This document shows positions 2,925 to 7,134 of a stretch of DNA of 10,250 bases, one piece after another. Positions within the stretch are counted from its first letter, which is position 1. Each line of letters begins with the position of its first letter. The notes beneath the pieces were generated by a model. It was not told the origin of the DNA, made no database searches, and saw nothing but the letters and a program-made list of their open reading frames with translations. The DNA comes from Candidatus Saccharimonadota bacterium. Its GTDB lineage: Bacteria; Patescibacteriota; Saccharimonadia; Saccharimonadales; UBA4665. Location: positions 1 through 10,250 of the forward strand of contig DAHVAE010000020.1 of assembly GCA_027314795.1 (NCBI GenBank). Reading direction: 5' to 3'. A program made the translations under genes and the position numbers.

Positions 2925-3264
2925 TCAACGTGGCACTTGGTGTAACAGCTACCATTGATTTAGCAACAGAGCTATTTTGAACACGATTAAGAGATTGTAA
3001 CTGTGCTTGGGCTACCTCAAGATTTTGCTTTTGGTTTTCAAGCTGCTGTTGCTTAGTTTGCAAGTTAGCAATTTGATAACCATAGGTGTTAGTTTTGGTT
3101 ACTTGAGTTAAGTAAATTAAGCCCAATAAGCAAGCTAACACTACTAATATGATAGTGTTACTTATTGGCCCAATTTTGCGCTTTGTTAAGGCAAAACTGA
3201 CAGAGTTACGATTACGTCCAGAATAGCGTGTGCGATTCATGGCGAGGCTTGAAGAGTATGTCAT
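2917..3264 (-). CDS. FtsL-like bitopic division protein
   Basis: A 115-residue protein with the FtsL/DivIC layout: a basic cytoplasmic tail (residues 1-33, many Arg and Lys), one membrane helix at about 34-54, then a Gln- and Leu-rich coiled coil at about 61-94 and a short polar end. In the divisome FtsL joins FtsB (DivIC) and FtsQ (DivIB) and activates the FtsW-FtsI pair. Sequence conservation in FtsL is low, so the call rests on topology and on its place between rsmH and ftsI, the usual ftsL slot. The start at 3262-3264 has no Shine-Dalgarno; a second ATG nine codons in, just before the Arg-rich tail, is an alternative. A weak TATAAA lies 18 bases upstream. No FtsB or FtsQ gene is seen here. 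Confidence 0.75.
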   Translation of the reverse strand: MTYSSSLAMNRTRYSGRNRNSVSFALTKRKIGPISNTIILVVLACLLGLIYLTQVTKTNTYGYQIANLQTKQQQLENQKQNLEVAQAQLQSLNRVQNSSVAKSMVAVTPSATLTQ

Positions 3265-3299
3265 ATTTTTACTACTTTTAGTTTTATATTTGTTTGGTG

Positions 3300-3329
3300 C
3301 CTAGCTTAAAAGAAATCTCTTAAGCTAGG
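3300..3329 (-). repeat. Perfect inverted repeat between rsmH and the ftsL-like gene
   Basis: CCTAGCTTAA and TTAAGCTAGG pair perfectly over 10 bases around a 10-base loop; 2 to 3 more pairs can form inside past one mismatch. It sits in the 126-base rsmH to ftsL-like gap, about 35 bases before the ftsL-like start. Neither strand has a T-run after it, so a classic terminator is unlikely. An RNase III-type processing site, an mRNA stabiliser or a dimeric protein site are possibilities. The rest of this gap shows nothing I can name. Confidence 0.6.
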
Positions 3330-3390
3330 CTGTACTAGGTTATGTTAAGATAATACCCTAACTTTTACCTTGTACGTACGGGATCTGCTC

Positions 3391-4308
3391 TTAACCTGAA
3401 TTGGCATTTGAGACAACTCCCTTTCTTTTTATTTTCGCTACGGCCCGAAGTTTAGCACTTCTGGCTCGTGGATTATGGGCAGTTTCAATGAAGTTAGCGT
3501 GGACAGGATGTTTAGTGAGGAGCTTTAAGCTGCTGTCATAGCGATTACCACTATGGGCAGCAAAAAACTGTTTAACAATTCTATCCTCCAGACTATGGAA
3601 GCTTATAACTGCTAATTTGCCTCCAGGAGACAAAAGCCTTAACCAAAGCGGTAGACTATCCGCTAATAGGTCTAGCTCATTATTGACTGCAATTCTCAAG
3701 GCCTGAAAGGTTTTAGTTGCAGGGTTATGGCGGCTGTGCCCACCATAAACTGCCGCTATTACTGCCGACAGCTCACTGGTAGAGTATATCGGTCGATTAT
3801 TGGCAATTGCCTCAGCTATTAAACTAGCTTTTGACTCTTCGCCGTAATCCTTTAAGATGCGGTCAATTTCCTCTTTGGGAAAATGGTTTATTATCGTATC
3901 AGCAGTAAATGTTTGCCGTCTATCCATTCTCATGTCTAGCGGCCCATCCTGCTGGAACGAAAATCCACGACTACCCTCGTTAAGGTGCGGTGACGATACT
4001 CCAAGATCGGCCAAAATCAAATCGAACTGCATTTTTGATGAAACTAGCTCTTTACAGGCTCTATAGAAGTCATCATGAATGATTCTTGCACTAGATGAAC
4101 CAAACAATTTATTTAGTTCCGCTACTGCTTGATCATCACGATCAATTAATACTGCTAGATCGGGCCTAGCAGTTTTTTCTAATATTGCCGTTGAGTGCCC
4201 ACCATAACCGGCCGTTAAATCGAGATAACTATCACCTTTCTTGGGCTTTAGTAGCCGCAATACCTCTTTAATAAGGACTGGTTCGTGCTTTTTGTTTTTG
4301 GTTTTTAT
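3391..4308 (-). CDS. rsmH: 16S rRNA (cytosine1402-N4)-methyltransferase RsmH, AUA start proposed
   Basis: RsmH (MraW) uses S-adenosylmethionine to methylate N4 of C1402 in the ribosomal P site. Numbered from the proposed start, the motifs are: H8-E-P-V-L12, the SAM-binding D-L-T-A-G-Y-G-G-H-S at 30-39, D-L-G-V-S-S-P at 101-107, G-F-S-F-Q-Q-D-G-P-L-D-M-R-M-D at 115-129, S-F-H-S-L-E-D-R at 236-243, and the C-terminal N-P-R-A-R-S-A-K at 279-286. The only conventional start, TTG at 4258-4260, removes the conserved HEPVL-KEV segment, which is encoded in frame just upstream. No ATG, GTG or TTG lies between it and the stop codon at 4348-4350. The ATA at 4306-4308 gives 305 residues, normal for the family, and has AAAAAGGA ending 9 bases upstream. 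If ATA is not used, the annotated protein would be 3391-4260 (289 residues). Identity is certain; the start is an inference. Confidence 0.93.
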   Translation of the reverse strand: MKTKNKKHEPVLIKEVLRLLKPKKGDSYLDLTAGYGGHSTAILEKTARPDLAVLIDRDDQAVAELNKLFGSSSARIIHDDFYRACKELVSSKMQFDLILADLGVSSPHLNEGSRGFSFQQDGPLDMRMDRRQTFTADTIINHFPKEEIDRILKDYGEESKASLIAEAIANNRPIYSTSELSAVIAAVYGGHSRHNPATKTFQALRIAVNNELDLLADSLPLWLRLLSPGGKLAVISFHSLEDRIVKQFFAAHSGNRYDSSLKLLTKHPVHANFIETAHNPRARSAKLRAVAKIKRKGVVSNANSG

Positions 4309-4596
4309 TTTGGTGTATCCTTTTTGCTTGTTTTTGTTTTTCCAAGGTCACCTAACCAGCAGCCAACTTTTTGTTTTGATTTAATTTTTGTTTTAAAGGA
4401 CAAATAGACGTGTAAAGAAGAATTCTTTATAGCCTGTTCGTCAATTGAGAGACTTATGTGTGAGGTGGAGTTTTGGGAGGTGTTTTTAAGAAAGAACTAG
4501 GTTATTTTAAGTGGGTTCCTATCCTGTTCCACTTGTTGACTGCCAGTTAGCCAATCTCGAGGGAGCATTAACTAACTATTAAATTTTTAAAGAACT
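4309..4596 (-). other. Long rsmH leader with possible alternative RNA structures
   Basis: This 288-base gap inside a compact operon holds no gene I can support. On the minus-strand RNA, arms at 4567-4577 and 4545-4555 form an 11-pair hairpin (two G-U). The segment at 4538-4550 can instead pair with 4352-4364 over 13 bases (three G-U), close to the rsmH Shine-Dalgarno. The two pairings share 4545-4550 and exclude each other. A further 6-pair stem, AAGTGG with CCACTT, lies nearby on the minus strand (about 4509-4534). A 23-codon frame at 4497-4568 has no Shine-Dalgarno and ends in TAG. The A-rich last 60 bases resemble a ribosome standby region. I found no convincing promoter or terminator. Pairings this long can arise by chance in AT-rich DNA. 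Confidence 0.35.
4318..4325 (-). promoter_or_regulatory. Shine-Dalgarno site that decides the rsmH start
   Basis: The minus strand reads AAAAAGGA here, followed by 9 bases and then the proposed ATA start at 4306-4308. Its core matches the anti-Shine-Dalgarno consensus and its spacing is normal. For the TTG at 4258-4260 the nearest purine-rich stretch (AAAGAGG) lies only 2 bases away, which is too close. This is one of only two well-spaced Shine-Dalgarno sites in the window. Confidence 0.6.
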
Positions 4597-4956
4597 TTAC
4601 TTAGCCATCAATCGCCAGTATTTACCTGCCCTGATAGCTACAACGTTATGCGTTATGCCGGCGTAATCCAAGAGGTGCTGCTCAAGACTAAATCTTCCTT
4701 GTTTCAGGTCAATCTGCCCCTCTGCCTTGCCCGTTCTAAATTGAACGTTCAAATCAGCCGTAGCCTCATCTAGTATGTTCCCAATGAGGTGTGGCTCAAC
4801 TTCTTGGCCCCATACATCTTTCGAGTACAGATGTAGGTACTTTTTAAAGCCGCGGGTGACAACCACTCCACTTGCGAACTCGTGCCTAAGCTCAGTCGGT
4901 ATTGATAACCGCCTTTTGCTATCCAGCTTTCGTTCGAAATAATCTATTGTCGCCAT
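4597..4956 (-). CDS. mraZ: Transcriptional regulator MraZ
   Basis: MraZ is the DNA-binding regulator that heads dcw operons and, in studied species, controls its own promoter by binding short GTGGG/TGGGN repeats as a ring-shaped oligomer. The 119 residues contain the two tandem AbrB-like halves: D12-S-K-R-R16-L-S-I-P at the start, and a second copy around I82-D-L-K-Q-G-R88-F-S-L followed by Y98-A-G-I. The second DXXXR motif is degenerate: in alignment Leu84 takes the Asp place. The first motif has Arg15 where Gly is usual. The protein is slightly shorter than the common 140-150, mostly at the C-terminus. The ATG is preceded directly by AAGGG, too close for a normal Shine-Dalgarno. Four GTGGG boxes lie upstream, which strongly supports the identity and autoregulation. 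Confidence 0.95.
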   Translation of the reverse strand: MATIDYFERKLDSKRRLSIPTELRHEFASGVVVTRGFKKYLHLYSKDVWGQEVEPHLIGNILDEATADLNVQFRTGKAEGQIDLKQGRFSLEQHLLDYAGITHNVVAIRAGKYWRLMAK

Positions 4957-5012
4957 CCCTTATTTCATTAGTGGTTTTTTTATTTTTGCGCGAGGTAAGC
5001 TATTTTGGCCTA

Positions 5013-5058
5013 CCCACGATTACCCACTAACAAGAGCATACTCCCCACAGCTCCCCAC
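5013..5058 (-). promoter_or_regulatory. Array of four MraZ-type operator boxes
   Basis: On the minus strand GTGGG occurs at 5054-5058, 5044-5048, 5023-5027 and 5013-5017. Start-to-start spacings are 10, 21 and 10, so all four lie on about the same face of the helix. This matches the known MraZ operator pattern (TGGGN repeats with 5-base spacers) and lies 57 to 102 bases before the mraZ start. MraZ probably binds here to control the dcw operon. Confidence 0.8.
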
Positions 5059-5063
5059 CACAA
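5035..5063 (-). promoter_or_regulatory. Candidate mraZ/dcw operon promoter
   Basis: TTGTGG (5058-5063) and TATGCT (5035-5040) are separated by 17 bases on the minus strand. Each hexamer is only a partial match (3 of 6 and 4 of 6), but two operator boxes fall in the spacer region and two just downstream of the -10, where bound MraZ would block RNA polymerase. The predicted leader is about 72 bases. The hexamers alone would not convince; the operator arrangement is what supports this placement. Confidence 0.35.
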
Positions 5064-5070
5064 GCATTAA

Positions 5071-5102
5071 ATAATAAAAAAGTGGTGTTTCTAACACCAC
5101 TT
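5071..5102 (-). terminator. Intrinsic terminator after the small membrane protein gene
   Basis: On the minus strand a 10-pair stem (AAGTGGTGTT with AACACCACTT, loop AGA) runs straight into a T-rich tail (TTTTTTATTATTT, partly overlapping the stem end). It is oriented to stop transcripts coming from the gene at 5263-5529, giving a 3' untranslated region of about 160-190 bases. It separates that unit from the dcw operon, whose MraZ boxes begin 12 bases further on. Confidence 0.8.
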
Positions 5103-5109
5103 ATCCACA
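5101..5109 (+). promoter_or_regulatory. DnaA box, perfect consensus
   Basis: TTATCCACA is the strict consensus DnaA-binding site. It touches the terminator stem and lies about 40 bases from the MraZ operator array. A second identical box in the same orientation lies at 5202-5210. About 90 bases of very AT-rich sequence (roughly 23% GC by my count) separate them. Confidence 0.55.
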
Positions 5110-5201
5110 GTATTATTATTCGGCTAAATTTTCGAGCTTTTATGTTGCTTTATATAACAGATTGAAAACTAACAGATGTAAATAATAATTGAATATCGTA
5201 T

Positions 5202-5210
5202 TTATCCACA
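5202..5210 (+). promoter_or_regulatory. DnaA box, perfect consensus (second copy)
   Basis: A second TTATCCACA, 101 bases from the first and in the same orientation. Just beyond it the minus strand carries TTATCCCCT, a two-mismatch box in the opposite orientation, so TTATCC and GGATAA face each other across 12 bases. The rest of 5110-5262 is AT-rich sequence with no other element I recognise. Confidence 0.55.
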
Positions 5211-5262
5211 GGTTTTAGGGGATAAGTATCAAGTACAATATTTTGAACACTTTTTTTACGAA

Positions 5263-5529
5263 TTAATACTTACCTGACCTAGAAGGAGTACGTTGAGTTT
5301 CGCTATAACTAACATAAGCAGGCACTACATCATCCTTTTCTCTGCTAACCGGATTGTTGATGTCATCAGTATTGTTGGTTTCAACCCTTATAACTTGACC
5401 CGGAAGAACGTAGCGATTAACACTATGATTGGGCATTCTCATCATACCAACTATAGTCGCGAGAGACATAATACTTATGCCTAGGAAGCTCGCATAACTT
5501 TTTATAAACAATGTTGTATTTTGAAGCAT
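5263..5529 (-). CDS. Small single-pass membrane protein of unknown function
   Basis: I do not recognise this 88-residue protein. Residues 1-11 are a short tail with one Lys. Residues about 12-30 form one hydrophobic helix, followed by a polar region with a short V-L-P-G-Q-V-I-R-V stretch (41-49), an acidic, Asn-rich part (50-68) and a Ser/Thr/Arg-rich end. This looks like a membrane-anchored protein with a flexible outer tail, though orientation cannot be fixed from sequence. The V-L-P-G-Q stretch faintly recalls LysM-type repeats, but there is far too little for a domain call. It lies 44 bases after yvcK, has its own strong promoter (5540-5568) with almost no leader, and ends before a good terminator, so it is probably a separate transcription unit. 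That the frame is open and so well flanked supports a real gene. Confidence 0.75.
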   Translation of the reverse strand: MLQNTTLFIKSYASFLGISIMSLATIVGMMRMPNHSVNRYVLPGQVIRVETNNTDDINNPVSREKDDVVPAYVSYSETQRTPSRSGKY

Positions 5530-5539
5530 TACTATGTGT

Positions 5540-5568
5540 ATAATAGCATAAGCTTGTTATATAGTCAA
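5540..5568 (-). promoter_or_regulatory. Strong sigma70-type promoter, nearly leaderless
   Basis: TTGACT (5563-5568), a 17-base spacer and TATTAT (5540-5545) are each one base from the sigma70 consensus at ideal spacing. The -10 ends 10 bases before the ATG, so the transcript should start about 4 bases upstream of it. It occupies the 44-base gap after the yvcK stop. This is the best-matched promoter in the window. Confidence 0.75.
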
Positions 5569-5573
5569 ATCTG

Positions 5574-6578
5574 TTAAATTATTTGTTCTTCAAGTATTTT
5601 TTGAACCTCGTTCGCTAGAGATTCACTGTTGTGCCTTAATAGCGACCTCTCTAATAGAAAGTCATTTTTATCCTGTTTTGCTCCTATATATGATAGTAAT
5701 TTAGCGGGTTTGGCTATATATTTCGCTTGCCGAAGAGTTTGTTCGTCAATGATTACCGGATGCTCATCATTTCTTGCATATTTGACTAACAGTTCTTCTG
5801 ATGGCGGATCAATATTGTAAATTACAAAATCTATTGTGTCTTTACCTGCAAACCTTTCTAATTCAGCTACGTAATCACTCACCTTGAACATAGCTGTGTT
5901 TTCTGGTTTATTAACCAGATTACAGATATAGACTACCGCAGCTTTGGAATTCTTTAGGGCATCAGGGACACCGTCAACCAATAAAGTTGGGATTAATGAG
6001 GTATATAAATTACCAGGTGAGATAACTATTAAATCCGCTTTAGAAATAGCTTTCGACGCTTCGGGAGCTATCTTGGCTTTTGGTTTAAGATACAGCGACG
6101 GTCTGGAGCCAATCTGAAGTTTTTTATTATCTACTGCCTTCTGACCAATTATCTGTTCTCCTTTATAGTCCATTATCAACTGGCATTTCTCCGTTGTAAC
6201 AGGTAATACCTCGCCTTTTATGTTAAGTACTTCGGATGCCATTTTCACTGCTTCAAGGAAGTTGTCTGTCATCATCTCTACAGAACTTAAAAAAAGATTT
6301 CCAAACGAATGACCGCCTAGACTGCTACCGGCTGGGAACCTAAAATTAAACAGGTTTCTTAGAGACACTGGCGCCTCGCTTAAAGCCACCAGACACTGCC
6401 TAATGTCACCAGGCGGCAAGACTCCGTATTCGTCTCTAAGCTGGCCTGTGGAGCCACCATCATCAACCATATTTACAAGAGCTTTTAAGTCGCAATCTAG
6501 CTTTTTTAAACCAGTTAGCACTGTAAAGCTGCCGGTGCCACCACCGATAACCACTACCTTTGGTTTTTTAGTTGTCAT
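5574..6578 (-). CDS. yvcK: YvcK/GlmR family UDP-sugar-binding protein (CofD-like fold)
   Basis: YvcK (GlmR, 'gluconeogenesis factor') binds UDP-GlcNAc and, in Bacillus and relatives, supports peptidoglycan precursor supply and cell shape. The 334 residues are full length. Family motifs in order: V-I-G-G-G-T-G-S at 10-17, V-D-D-G-G-S-T-G-Q-L-R at 38-48, P-P-G-D-I-R-Q at 55-61, G-G-H-S-F-G-N at 88-94, S-P-G-N-L-Y-T-S at 187-194, and C-N-L-V-N near 219-223. The fold is shared with CofD (2-phospho-L-lactate transferase), but the DDGGSTG and GHSFGN motifs fit YvcK. The start ATG at 6576-6578 overlaps the end of the NYN gene by 11 bases and has no Shine-Dalgarno, so translation is probably coupled to that gene. 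Whiter/RapZ-type partners often found beside yvcK are absent; the dcw operon instead follows closely. Confidence 0.93.
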   Translation of the reverse strand: MTTKKPKVVVIGGGTGSFTVLTGLKKLDCDLKALVNMVDDGGSTGQLRDEYGVLPPGDIRQCLVALSEAPVSLRNLFNFRFPAGSSLGGHSFGNLFLSSVEMMTDNFLEAVKMASEVLNIKGEVLPVTTEKCQLIMDYKGEQIIGQKAVDNKKLQIGSRPSLYLKPKAKIAPEASKAISKADLIVISPGNLYTSLIPTLLVDGVPDALKNSKAAVVYICNLVNKPENTAMFKVSDYVAELERFAGKDTIDFVIYNIDPPSEELLVKYARNDEHPVIIDEQTLRQAKYIAKPAKLLSYIGAKQDKNDFLLERSLLRHNSESLANEVQKILEEQII

Positions 6579-7134
6579 CGTGTTTTTTACTGACTGTTTT
6601 CTTAGACCTATACTCTAAACGACCCCTAAGTTTATCTAAGTTAATGATATTTTTCTCAAATGGTTTTAATAAAGTGGAATATTGCCAATTAGGTGCCATC
6701 ACCCAGGCTAATTTTTGCCTACTAAGTAAGTATTCTATAAGGCTATAAAAATCGCCGTCTCCAGATACAATTATAGCTTTTGAATAATTGTGCATTTCTT
6801 TAAGCGCTGTTAGGACTATTTCCGTATCAACATTACCCTTTACGGTGTTTTTATCTGCATCTTTATTTTCACCTTCTTTAGGTTGTGCGTGAATCTCTAG
6901 AGTTGGTTTAAGCACCACTAAATAACCTAAGCTATGCATATACTCATAAAGTGACTCGTTTTCAGCCATATAACCTATAAACATATATGCCTTAGTAACT
7001 GAATATTCTTTTCTTAAAAATTGTCTAAACTTACGCCAATCCATCTTCCAGCCCATACGCTGCGTGCCCAGGTTGAGGTTCTGACTATCTATAAAAGCAT
7101 AAACTGCTTTGTTTTTACGAAATCTCGTTCTCAA
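6568..7134 (-). CDS. NYN-domain (LabA/DUF88-like) PIN-fold protein
   Basis: The 188-residue protein carries the acidic pattern of NYN domains, a PIN-like fold found in metal-dependent RNases: F14-I-D16-S-Q-N19 after a basic start, N101-V-D103 in the middle, and S124-G-D126-G-D128-F near the C-terminal third. The C-terminus is basic (R-S-K-K-T-V-S-K-K-H). Role in the cell is unknown; RNA processing or decay is the usual guess for the family. The start is TTG at 7132-7134 behind AAAGGA with 7 bases spacing, one of only two good Shine-Dalgarno sites here. It begins 21 bases after the helicase stop and overlaps yvcK by 11 bases, so the three probably share transcripts. Family call is strong; a precise function cannot be given. 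Confidence 0.88.
   Translation of the reverse strand: MRTRFRKNKAVYAFIDSQNLNLGTQRMGWKMDWRKFRQFLRKEYSVTKAYMFIGYMAENESLYEYMHSLGYLVVLKPTLEIHAQPKEGENKDADKNTVKGNVDTEIVLTALKEMHNYSKAIIVSGDGDFYSLIEYLLSRQKLAWVMAPNWQYSTLLKPFEKNIINLDKLRGRLEYRSKKTVSKKHDDN

Follow-up and report, generated by a model that had tools for sequence, protein, structure and literature searches.

The rsmH locus and its start region

The window, i.e., the whole stretch of 10,250 nucleotides that was analyzed, is the complete contig C14 of a genome assembly of 681 kb (101 contigs), which is denoted G000 here. The closest relatives with names are mostly Candidatus Saccharibacteria or Saccharimonadales, to which we therefore assign the window. 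Its minus strand carries rsmH (mraW), which encodes the N4-methyltransferase of 16S rRNA C1402. The gene is adjoined upstream by mraZ, a dcw-type position, and the ORFs downstream of it resemble, by eye, ftsL, ftsI, and mraY (Table 1). Upstream of mraZ, an 88-aa ORF (5263-5529) without a Pfam match adjoins a 334-aa ORF (5574-6578). The RsmH protein of 305 residues that the earlier note had derived from an ATA codon was recovered. It matches the Pfam family PF01795 (Methyltransf_5) with 297.4 bits at a cut-off of 27, and its residues 6-292 cover positions 2-308 of the 309 positions of the profile, i.e., the domain is near full length. Methylation of C1402 by this protein is predicted from its membership in the RsmH/MraW family.

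Table 1. Coordinates of rsmH, its neighbor, and the features of its start region in the window
Feature	Positions	Strand	Remarks
rsmH (mraW), 16S rRNA C1402 N4-methyltransferase	3391..4308	minus	305 aa counted from ATA
mraZ	4597..4956	minus	Pfam PF02381
Probable start codon ATA	4306..4308	minus	Sole near-cognate codon common to both genomes of the genus in frame, from stop to HxPVL; Met at this position in P0002
AAAAAGGA, Shine-Dalgarno (SD) motif	4318..4325	minus	9 bases ahead of ATA; identical in G001
Second ATA, where the relatives have their ATG (ATGCACCAA)	4316..4318	minus	Out of the rsmH frame here
TTG, earliest conventional start codon in the rsmH frame; probably not the true start	4258..4260	minus	TTA in G001; used in the P0001 call
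In-frame stop codon TGA upstream of rsmH	4348..4350	minus	
mraZ-rsmH leader	4327..4596	minus	Long; sequence blocks conserved order-wide
GTGACCTTG of the conserved leader	4343..4351	minus	Out of the rsmH frame in G000 and G001

After the TGA, the frame reads CCT TGG AAA AAC AAA AAC AAG CAA AAA GGA TAC ACC AAA ATA (4308-4306), and from the ATA it continues with AAA ACC AAA AAC AAA AAG CAC GAA CCA GTC CTT ATT AAA GAG GTA TTG (4260-4258). The window DNA contains no ATG, GTG, or TTG in the rsmH frame from the stop codon to the HEPVL motif (HxPVL in general). The earlier note was correct about this absence, and its positions and letters for the ATA, the SD motif nine bases upstream, the TTG, and the stop codon were all accurate. 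A start at the TTG would strip HEPVLIKEV from RsmH. The window's RsmH is called from the TTG in the protein databases (P0001, 289 aa), with two contigs on record that agree on this call.

The AAAGGA within the SD motif is complementary to the 3'-end of the 16S rRNA of the window genome, which reads GGATTACCTCCTTTCT. The 16S rRNA gene of this genome is interrupted (L277, contig C35, minus strand, from approximately 7481 to 4500). The group I intron family RF00028 matches at 6440-6749, and an insert of approximately 410 bases separates TTGTACA from CACCGCCCGTCA, near C1402, the target of RsmH; a weak match to group II D1-D4 (RF01998) at 5474-5548 falls inside this insert. A further insert after AAGTCGTA contains an ORF that holds a stop codon and that, by eye, we take to be LAGLIDADG-like.

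The start region in a second genome of the genus

A single other genome of the same genus was compared, G001 (LSA5.bin99, contig JAJZKE010000010.1, also numbered L034), which is a separate assembly. Its RsmH is 73% identical to that of the window over all 305 residues, and its start region reads TAA AAA GGA TAC ACT AAA ATA AAA ACC AAA AAT AAA CAA CAT CAG CCA GTC TTA TTA. The SD motif AAAAAGGA, the spacing of nine bases, and the ATA are the same in both genomes. No 16S rRNA was found in G001, and the complementarity of the SD motif rests on the 16S tail of G000.

In G001, an in-frame TAA lies six codons ahead of the ATA, closer than the TGA of the window. It confines the start to the twelve codons before HxPVL, and the sole near-cognate codon among these is the ATA. 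From stop codon to motif, ATA is also the only codon one base away from ATG that the two genomes share in frame. From the ATA to the codon before the TTG, the genomes differ by five synonymous and three non-synonymous changes in 16 codons (counted by eye), which indicates that this stretch is protein-coding. Together with the identity of the SD motif, spacing, and codon in the genus-mate, which upholds the AUA start proposed in the earlier note as the best reading, these comparisons make it very probable that rsmH is translated from the AUA at 4308-4306, nine bases behind AAAAAGGA.

rsmH starts across the order and beyond

The rsmH gene is present in 381 of 392 genomes of the order, and 128 of these genes were read as DNA (80 of 100 drawn-up stretches were taken, one of them a duplicate). 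A canonical in-frame start before HxPVL was found in 126 of the 128 genes, in 123 cases with ATG. The two exceptions were G000 and G001, both members of the window's genus. As a control, 80 rsmH loci from several phyla were taken, and one (L039) was skipped. Among the 79 further loci, a script identified a canonical start in 77, and inspection by eye added L057, which gives 78; the lone exception, L034, turned out to be G001's own record. The absence of a canonical rsmH start in both members of the genus is more than chance. SD motifs are rare at this gene in the relatives: a core 4-12 bases before the start was present in 5 of the 126 relatives' genes, measured from the nearest ATG or, where ATG is absent, from the nearest start, whereas such a core precedes 212 of the 548 canonical starts in conserved genes of G000 and G001.

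Gene calls in the clade of the window's RsmH

The protein databases contain twelve further RsmH sequences with 70-76% identity (P0002-P0013), which, together with G000 and G001, form one clade of 14 with support of 100/99 in a 68-row tree, the bootstrap of which was not fully settled. Genus g8 also carries ATA at the position of the ancestral start, and a sister relation to it was considered; this was rejected, as the tree does not show it and groups G008 with G014. Nine of the twelve proteins (P0004, P0005, P0007-P0013) have gene calls that begin within or beyond HxPVL, versus 4 of the 107 other listed proteins (P0015, P0017, P0022, P0099). This is as expected if an upstream ATG, GTG, or TTG is absent. 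For five of the nine, the longest contig measures 61 to 354 kb. The contigs of P0004, P0008, and P0013 measure 1.5-3.1 kb, and truncation of the gene by a contig end could also explain these three short calls. P0010 and the RsmH of G001 are one and the same protein (zero distance). A missing canonical start in the nine is thus a prediction from gene calls, with G000 and G001 as its DNA basis.

The three remaining proteins differ. P0002 begins with MKTKNKQHEPVLLKEV, and its Met falls exactly on the ATA position. P0003 (MTL...) and P0006 (MIL...) begin at the apparent leader and retain K-I-K-T-K at the site of the ATA. The trait is therefore not fixed in the clade, given the Met in P0002 and the apparent upstream in-frame starts in P0003 and P0006. 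The earlier note had held that relatives showing ATG at this codon would point to an assembly error. A Met does stand there in P0002, but ATA is common to two species, and the two observations together argue that the codon is the start and not an error of assembly. One practical consequence is that standard gene callers shorten RsmH in much of the window's clade.

The leader and the ancestral start

The leader between mraZ and rsmH contains GGTGA[CT]CT[TC]G in 109 of the 128 upstream regions and CTCCACCTCACACA in 96, and both occur in 80. An Rfam scan of 3200-5300 yielded no family at the gathering score, and the leader is possibly an undescribed cis-element. A stem formed by GCUGGUU of the leader and the HxPV codons, with the SD motif and the AUA in the loop, can be drawn for both species; its z values were only -1.52 and -1.11, and it was dropped.

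The usual rsmH start of the relatives is ATGCACCAA, which was found in 52 of the 61 with a readable CACCAA block. Their ATG (ATGCACCAAAA...) aligns with the second ATA of the window at 4318-4316 and not with the ATA at 4308-4306. In G001, the second ATA is followed by CAC TAA and is unusable there without a frameshift. Where the ancestral start position does not hold ATG, ATA is the most frequent codon (7 of the 61 readable cases, G000 and G001 counted in). The five others (L016, L024, L026, L181, and L201) lie outside the genus and have another canonical in-frame start nearby; these relatives, too, may initiate at AUA, or the codon may be a relic. Their existence indicates that the change from ATG to ATA is common here. 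In the clade of the window, the old ATG appears to have been lost, the N-terminal tail of RsmH shifted by one frame, and the SD motif gained; the order of these events is our reconstruction.

A genome-pair screen and the infC gene

ORFs of at least 50 aa from the covered part of G001 (671 kb) were compared with those from the covered part of G000 (561 kb). This yielded 605 reciprocal pairs, 572 of which were closed at the 5'-end, and 372 pairs were left after the removal of shadow ORFs. No canonical codon was present upstream of the alignment in either genome for 239 of the 372 pairs. Visual inspection of the 14 of the 239 with the most identical residues before the shared start left, among these best 14, only rsmH and infC with a conserved N-terminus ahead of any canonical start in both genomes. 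The remaining inspected pairs mostly had an ATG a few columns away, and a few were noise. A canonical codon in one genome was found for 65 pairs, of which the best 12 were listed, and the 68 pairs with a canonical codon upstream in both genomes cannot be judged by this approach. For the L245/L229 pair, the twenty codons upstream of the shared start are identical in translation at 16 of 20 positions with zero synonymous changes, which suggests a conserved non-coding element.

The second gene, infC, encodes IF3, and this parallel goes beyond the account of the earlier note. Its start region reads GAGGAGACTAAACCC ATA GCC AGA TTC in G000 and AAAGGAGAGAATT ATA GCC AAG TTC in G001. An infC match was obtained in 53 of 60 genomes of the order, and 30 loci were drawn, of which 25 were used (four were without the motif, and one was mis-registered). 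In the 25 readable cases, the aligned start codon was, by eye, ATA in 10, ATC in 13, and ATT in 2. In three of the 25, a canonical codon also lies close by in the same frame, upstream in G021 and G020 and after the ATA in G014. The near-cognate start of infC thus seems to be old in the order, and that of rsmH seems to be new to the window's clade.

The same genome pair was used to characterize the internal decoding of AUA. In pairs with at least 60% identity and at least 100 columns, 3880 ATA codons were aligned, 1523 times with ATT or ATC and 61 times with ATG. By these alignments, AUA inside genes is decoded as isoleucine, and the start would therefore represent near-cognate initiation and not another code. 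In the stretches of G000 and G001 that were scanned for tRNA genes, nothing odd was seen by anticodon; three CAT tRNAs were found in G001 and one in G000.

A possible feedback of RsmH on its own synthesis

Initiation at the AUA would most simply use the ordinary initiator tRNA at a near-cognate codon. IF3 discriminates against AUA, and ribosomes that lack m4C1402, the product of RsmH, take non-AUG starts more readily, so that a shortage of IF3 or the absence of the C1402 methyl group would favor the reading of the AUA of rsmH. A shortage of RsmH could then raise the translation of rsmH itself. The purpose of the arrangement might be to hold RsmH low and to couple its level to the fidelity of initiation. 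This idea is built on the analogy to infC and on the rise of non-AUG initiation upon loss of RsmH in E. coli. Self-control of RsmH through its own rRNA mark, as a second start-codon homeostat beside infC, is a tentative proposal, to which we assign a probability of about one in three.

The published data, which are cited here from the available portions of the respective texts, are not uniform. Without RsmH, non-AUG initiation increases in E. coli (PMC6821322), and the same effect is worded differently and tied to UGA read-through in a second source (PMC7694415). A third source describes fidelity and UGA effects of differing sign, and the available portion of its text does not mention non-AUG initiation (PMC13245932). 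A match to RsmI (TIGR00096) was found in none of the 31 genomes searched, with 12 of 14 controls positive; C1402 may carry only the N4 methyl group in the bacteria of this order, and the m4Cm1402 data of E. coli therefore apply only in part.

If the proposal were true, maturation of 16S rRNA would be coupled to the stringency of initiation in ultra-small bacteria. That the genes for IF3 and RsmH, two factors of start choice, carry the same codon suggests a role that near-cognate starts may have as stringency sensors, and the AUA start of rsmH offers a concrete test of the role of the m4C1402 mark.

Alternative explanations

The strongest alternative contests the purpose of the AUA and not its use as the start codon. 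The AUA could be real but merely tolerated, the ATG having been lost by drift and the SD motif rescuing enough translation, without any feedback. The frequency of ATA at the ancestral position, where five of the seven cases have a different canonical start, fits this view, as does the Met at the new position in P0002, which indicates that the codon comes and goes. On this view, little enzyme would be needed, and a weak start would suffice. However, infC, the only other gene with the trait among the top-ranked pairs, is an unlikely partner under drift alone, and the shortened gene calls are kept in most members of a diverse clade. We consider the chances of a merely tolerated start to be even.

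The other alternatives are directed against the AUA start itself. Translation could begin at a GTG or TTG of the leader (4351 or 4345) and pass into the frame of rsmH through a +1 frameshift or through slippage on the AAAAAGG run. The conserved GTGACCTTG is only one frame away in G000 and G001 and, judged from the proteins, seems to be in frame in P0003 and P0006, and AAAAAGGATACAC, where any such shift would take place, is identical in both genomes. Against this, no SD motif was seen by eye ahead of the leader GTG, the A runs are only five long, and the leader frame of G001 is closed by a TAA after thirteen codons. Furthermore, a stop codon directly follows the motif in 16 of the 109 motif-bearing relatives, so conservation of the motif does not depend on its capacity to start a protein. 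We regard a start in the leader as unlikely.

A start of RsmH at TTG 4260-4258 in the window species is less probable still. It agrees with the conventional call of P0001, but it would remove HxPVL, which the Pfam model covers from profile position 2. As a general start, the TTG fails in the relative: G001 has TTA at this site, and its first conventional start comes 35 residues past the lysine after the TAA, beyond HxPVL.

The earlier note had named a sequencing error that hides an ATG as its main alternative, and an error of sequencing or assembly in codon or frame now has only a very slight probability. Both genomes are draft bins, and the contig of G001 has an assembler coverage of only 1.7 according to its record title. 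Nevertheless, the letters are identical in two genomes whose RsmH proteins differ by 27%, so two separate assemblies would have to err alike, and the shortened calls across the clade, as well as the identical TTG call of P0001 on two contigs, further weaken this explanation. The last alternative, that AUA is methionine in this genus and the start is ordinary under another code, has next to no probability: AUA starts do occur where AUA means methionine, as in the human mitochondrial code, but the codon alignments contradict it here, and only two genes stood out by inspection among 372 pairs. AUA starts in human mitochondria are named in PMC6821322.

Comparison with known systems

In the literature searched, of which the available portions of text were considered, no earlier report of an AUA start of rsmH was found, and AUA starts outside infC amounted to only a handful of bacterial genes. 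The non-canonical start of rsmH is well supported by the sequence comparisons, and rsmH, as a new gene in this known class, is an unusually apt one. A further parallel is prfB, the mRNA of which is used for autoregulation by a frameshift. Like the proposed rsmH loop, the prfB mRNA reads out the event on which the encoded factor acts, but that event is termination, and the readout is by frameshift; an RsmH variant was among the suppressors in the prfB study (PMC13245932).

Near-cognate starts outside infC have been characterized in S. aureus by profiling and reporters, namely, AUA for ccpN and citZ and AUU for cvfC1. The near-cognate reporters of cvfC1, ccpN, and citZ reached about 10% of the AUG output, and ccpN up to 30% in rich medium. 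These genes have other functions, and no loop via ribosome modification is involved, as far as the available text goes (PMC13009471). In Streptomyces, sigR is likewise a gene other than infC that is held down by a non-canonical start and repressed by IF3; however, its codon is GTC, and its product, a sigma factor, does not act in start selection (PMC5472188).

The closest parallel is infC. Its near-cognate start is ATT in E. coli, ATC in Streptomyces, and AUA in S. aureus (PMC5472188, PMC13009471), and the AUA starts of infC and ccpN in S. aureus were seen by ribosome profiling, with an extended SD motif (PMC13009471). Both infC and rsmH have an AUN start behind a strong SD motif, the product of both is a factor of start-codon fidelity, and infC of the window's genus also starts with ATA. 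They differ in that IF3 binds the 30S subunit, whereas RsmH modifies C1402 of the 16S rRNA, and in that the near-cognate start is found in all 25 readable infC genes of the order, whereas that of rsmH occurs in one clade. Feedback of IF3 on infC is known (PMC5472188), whereas for rsmH it is the hypothesis put forward here.
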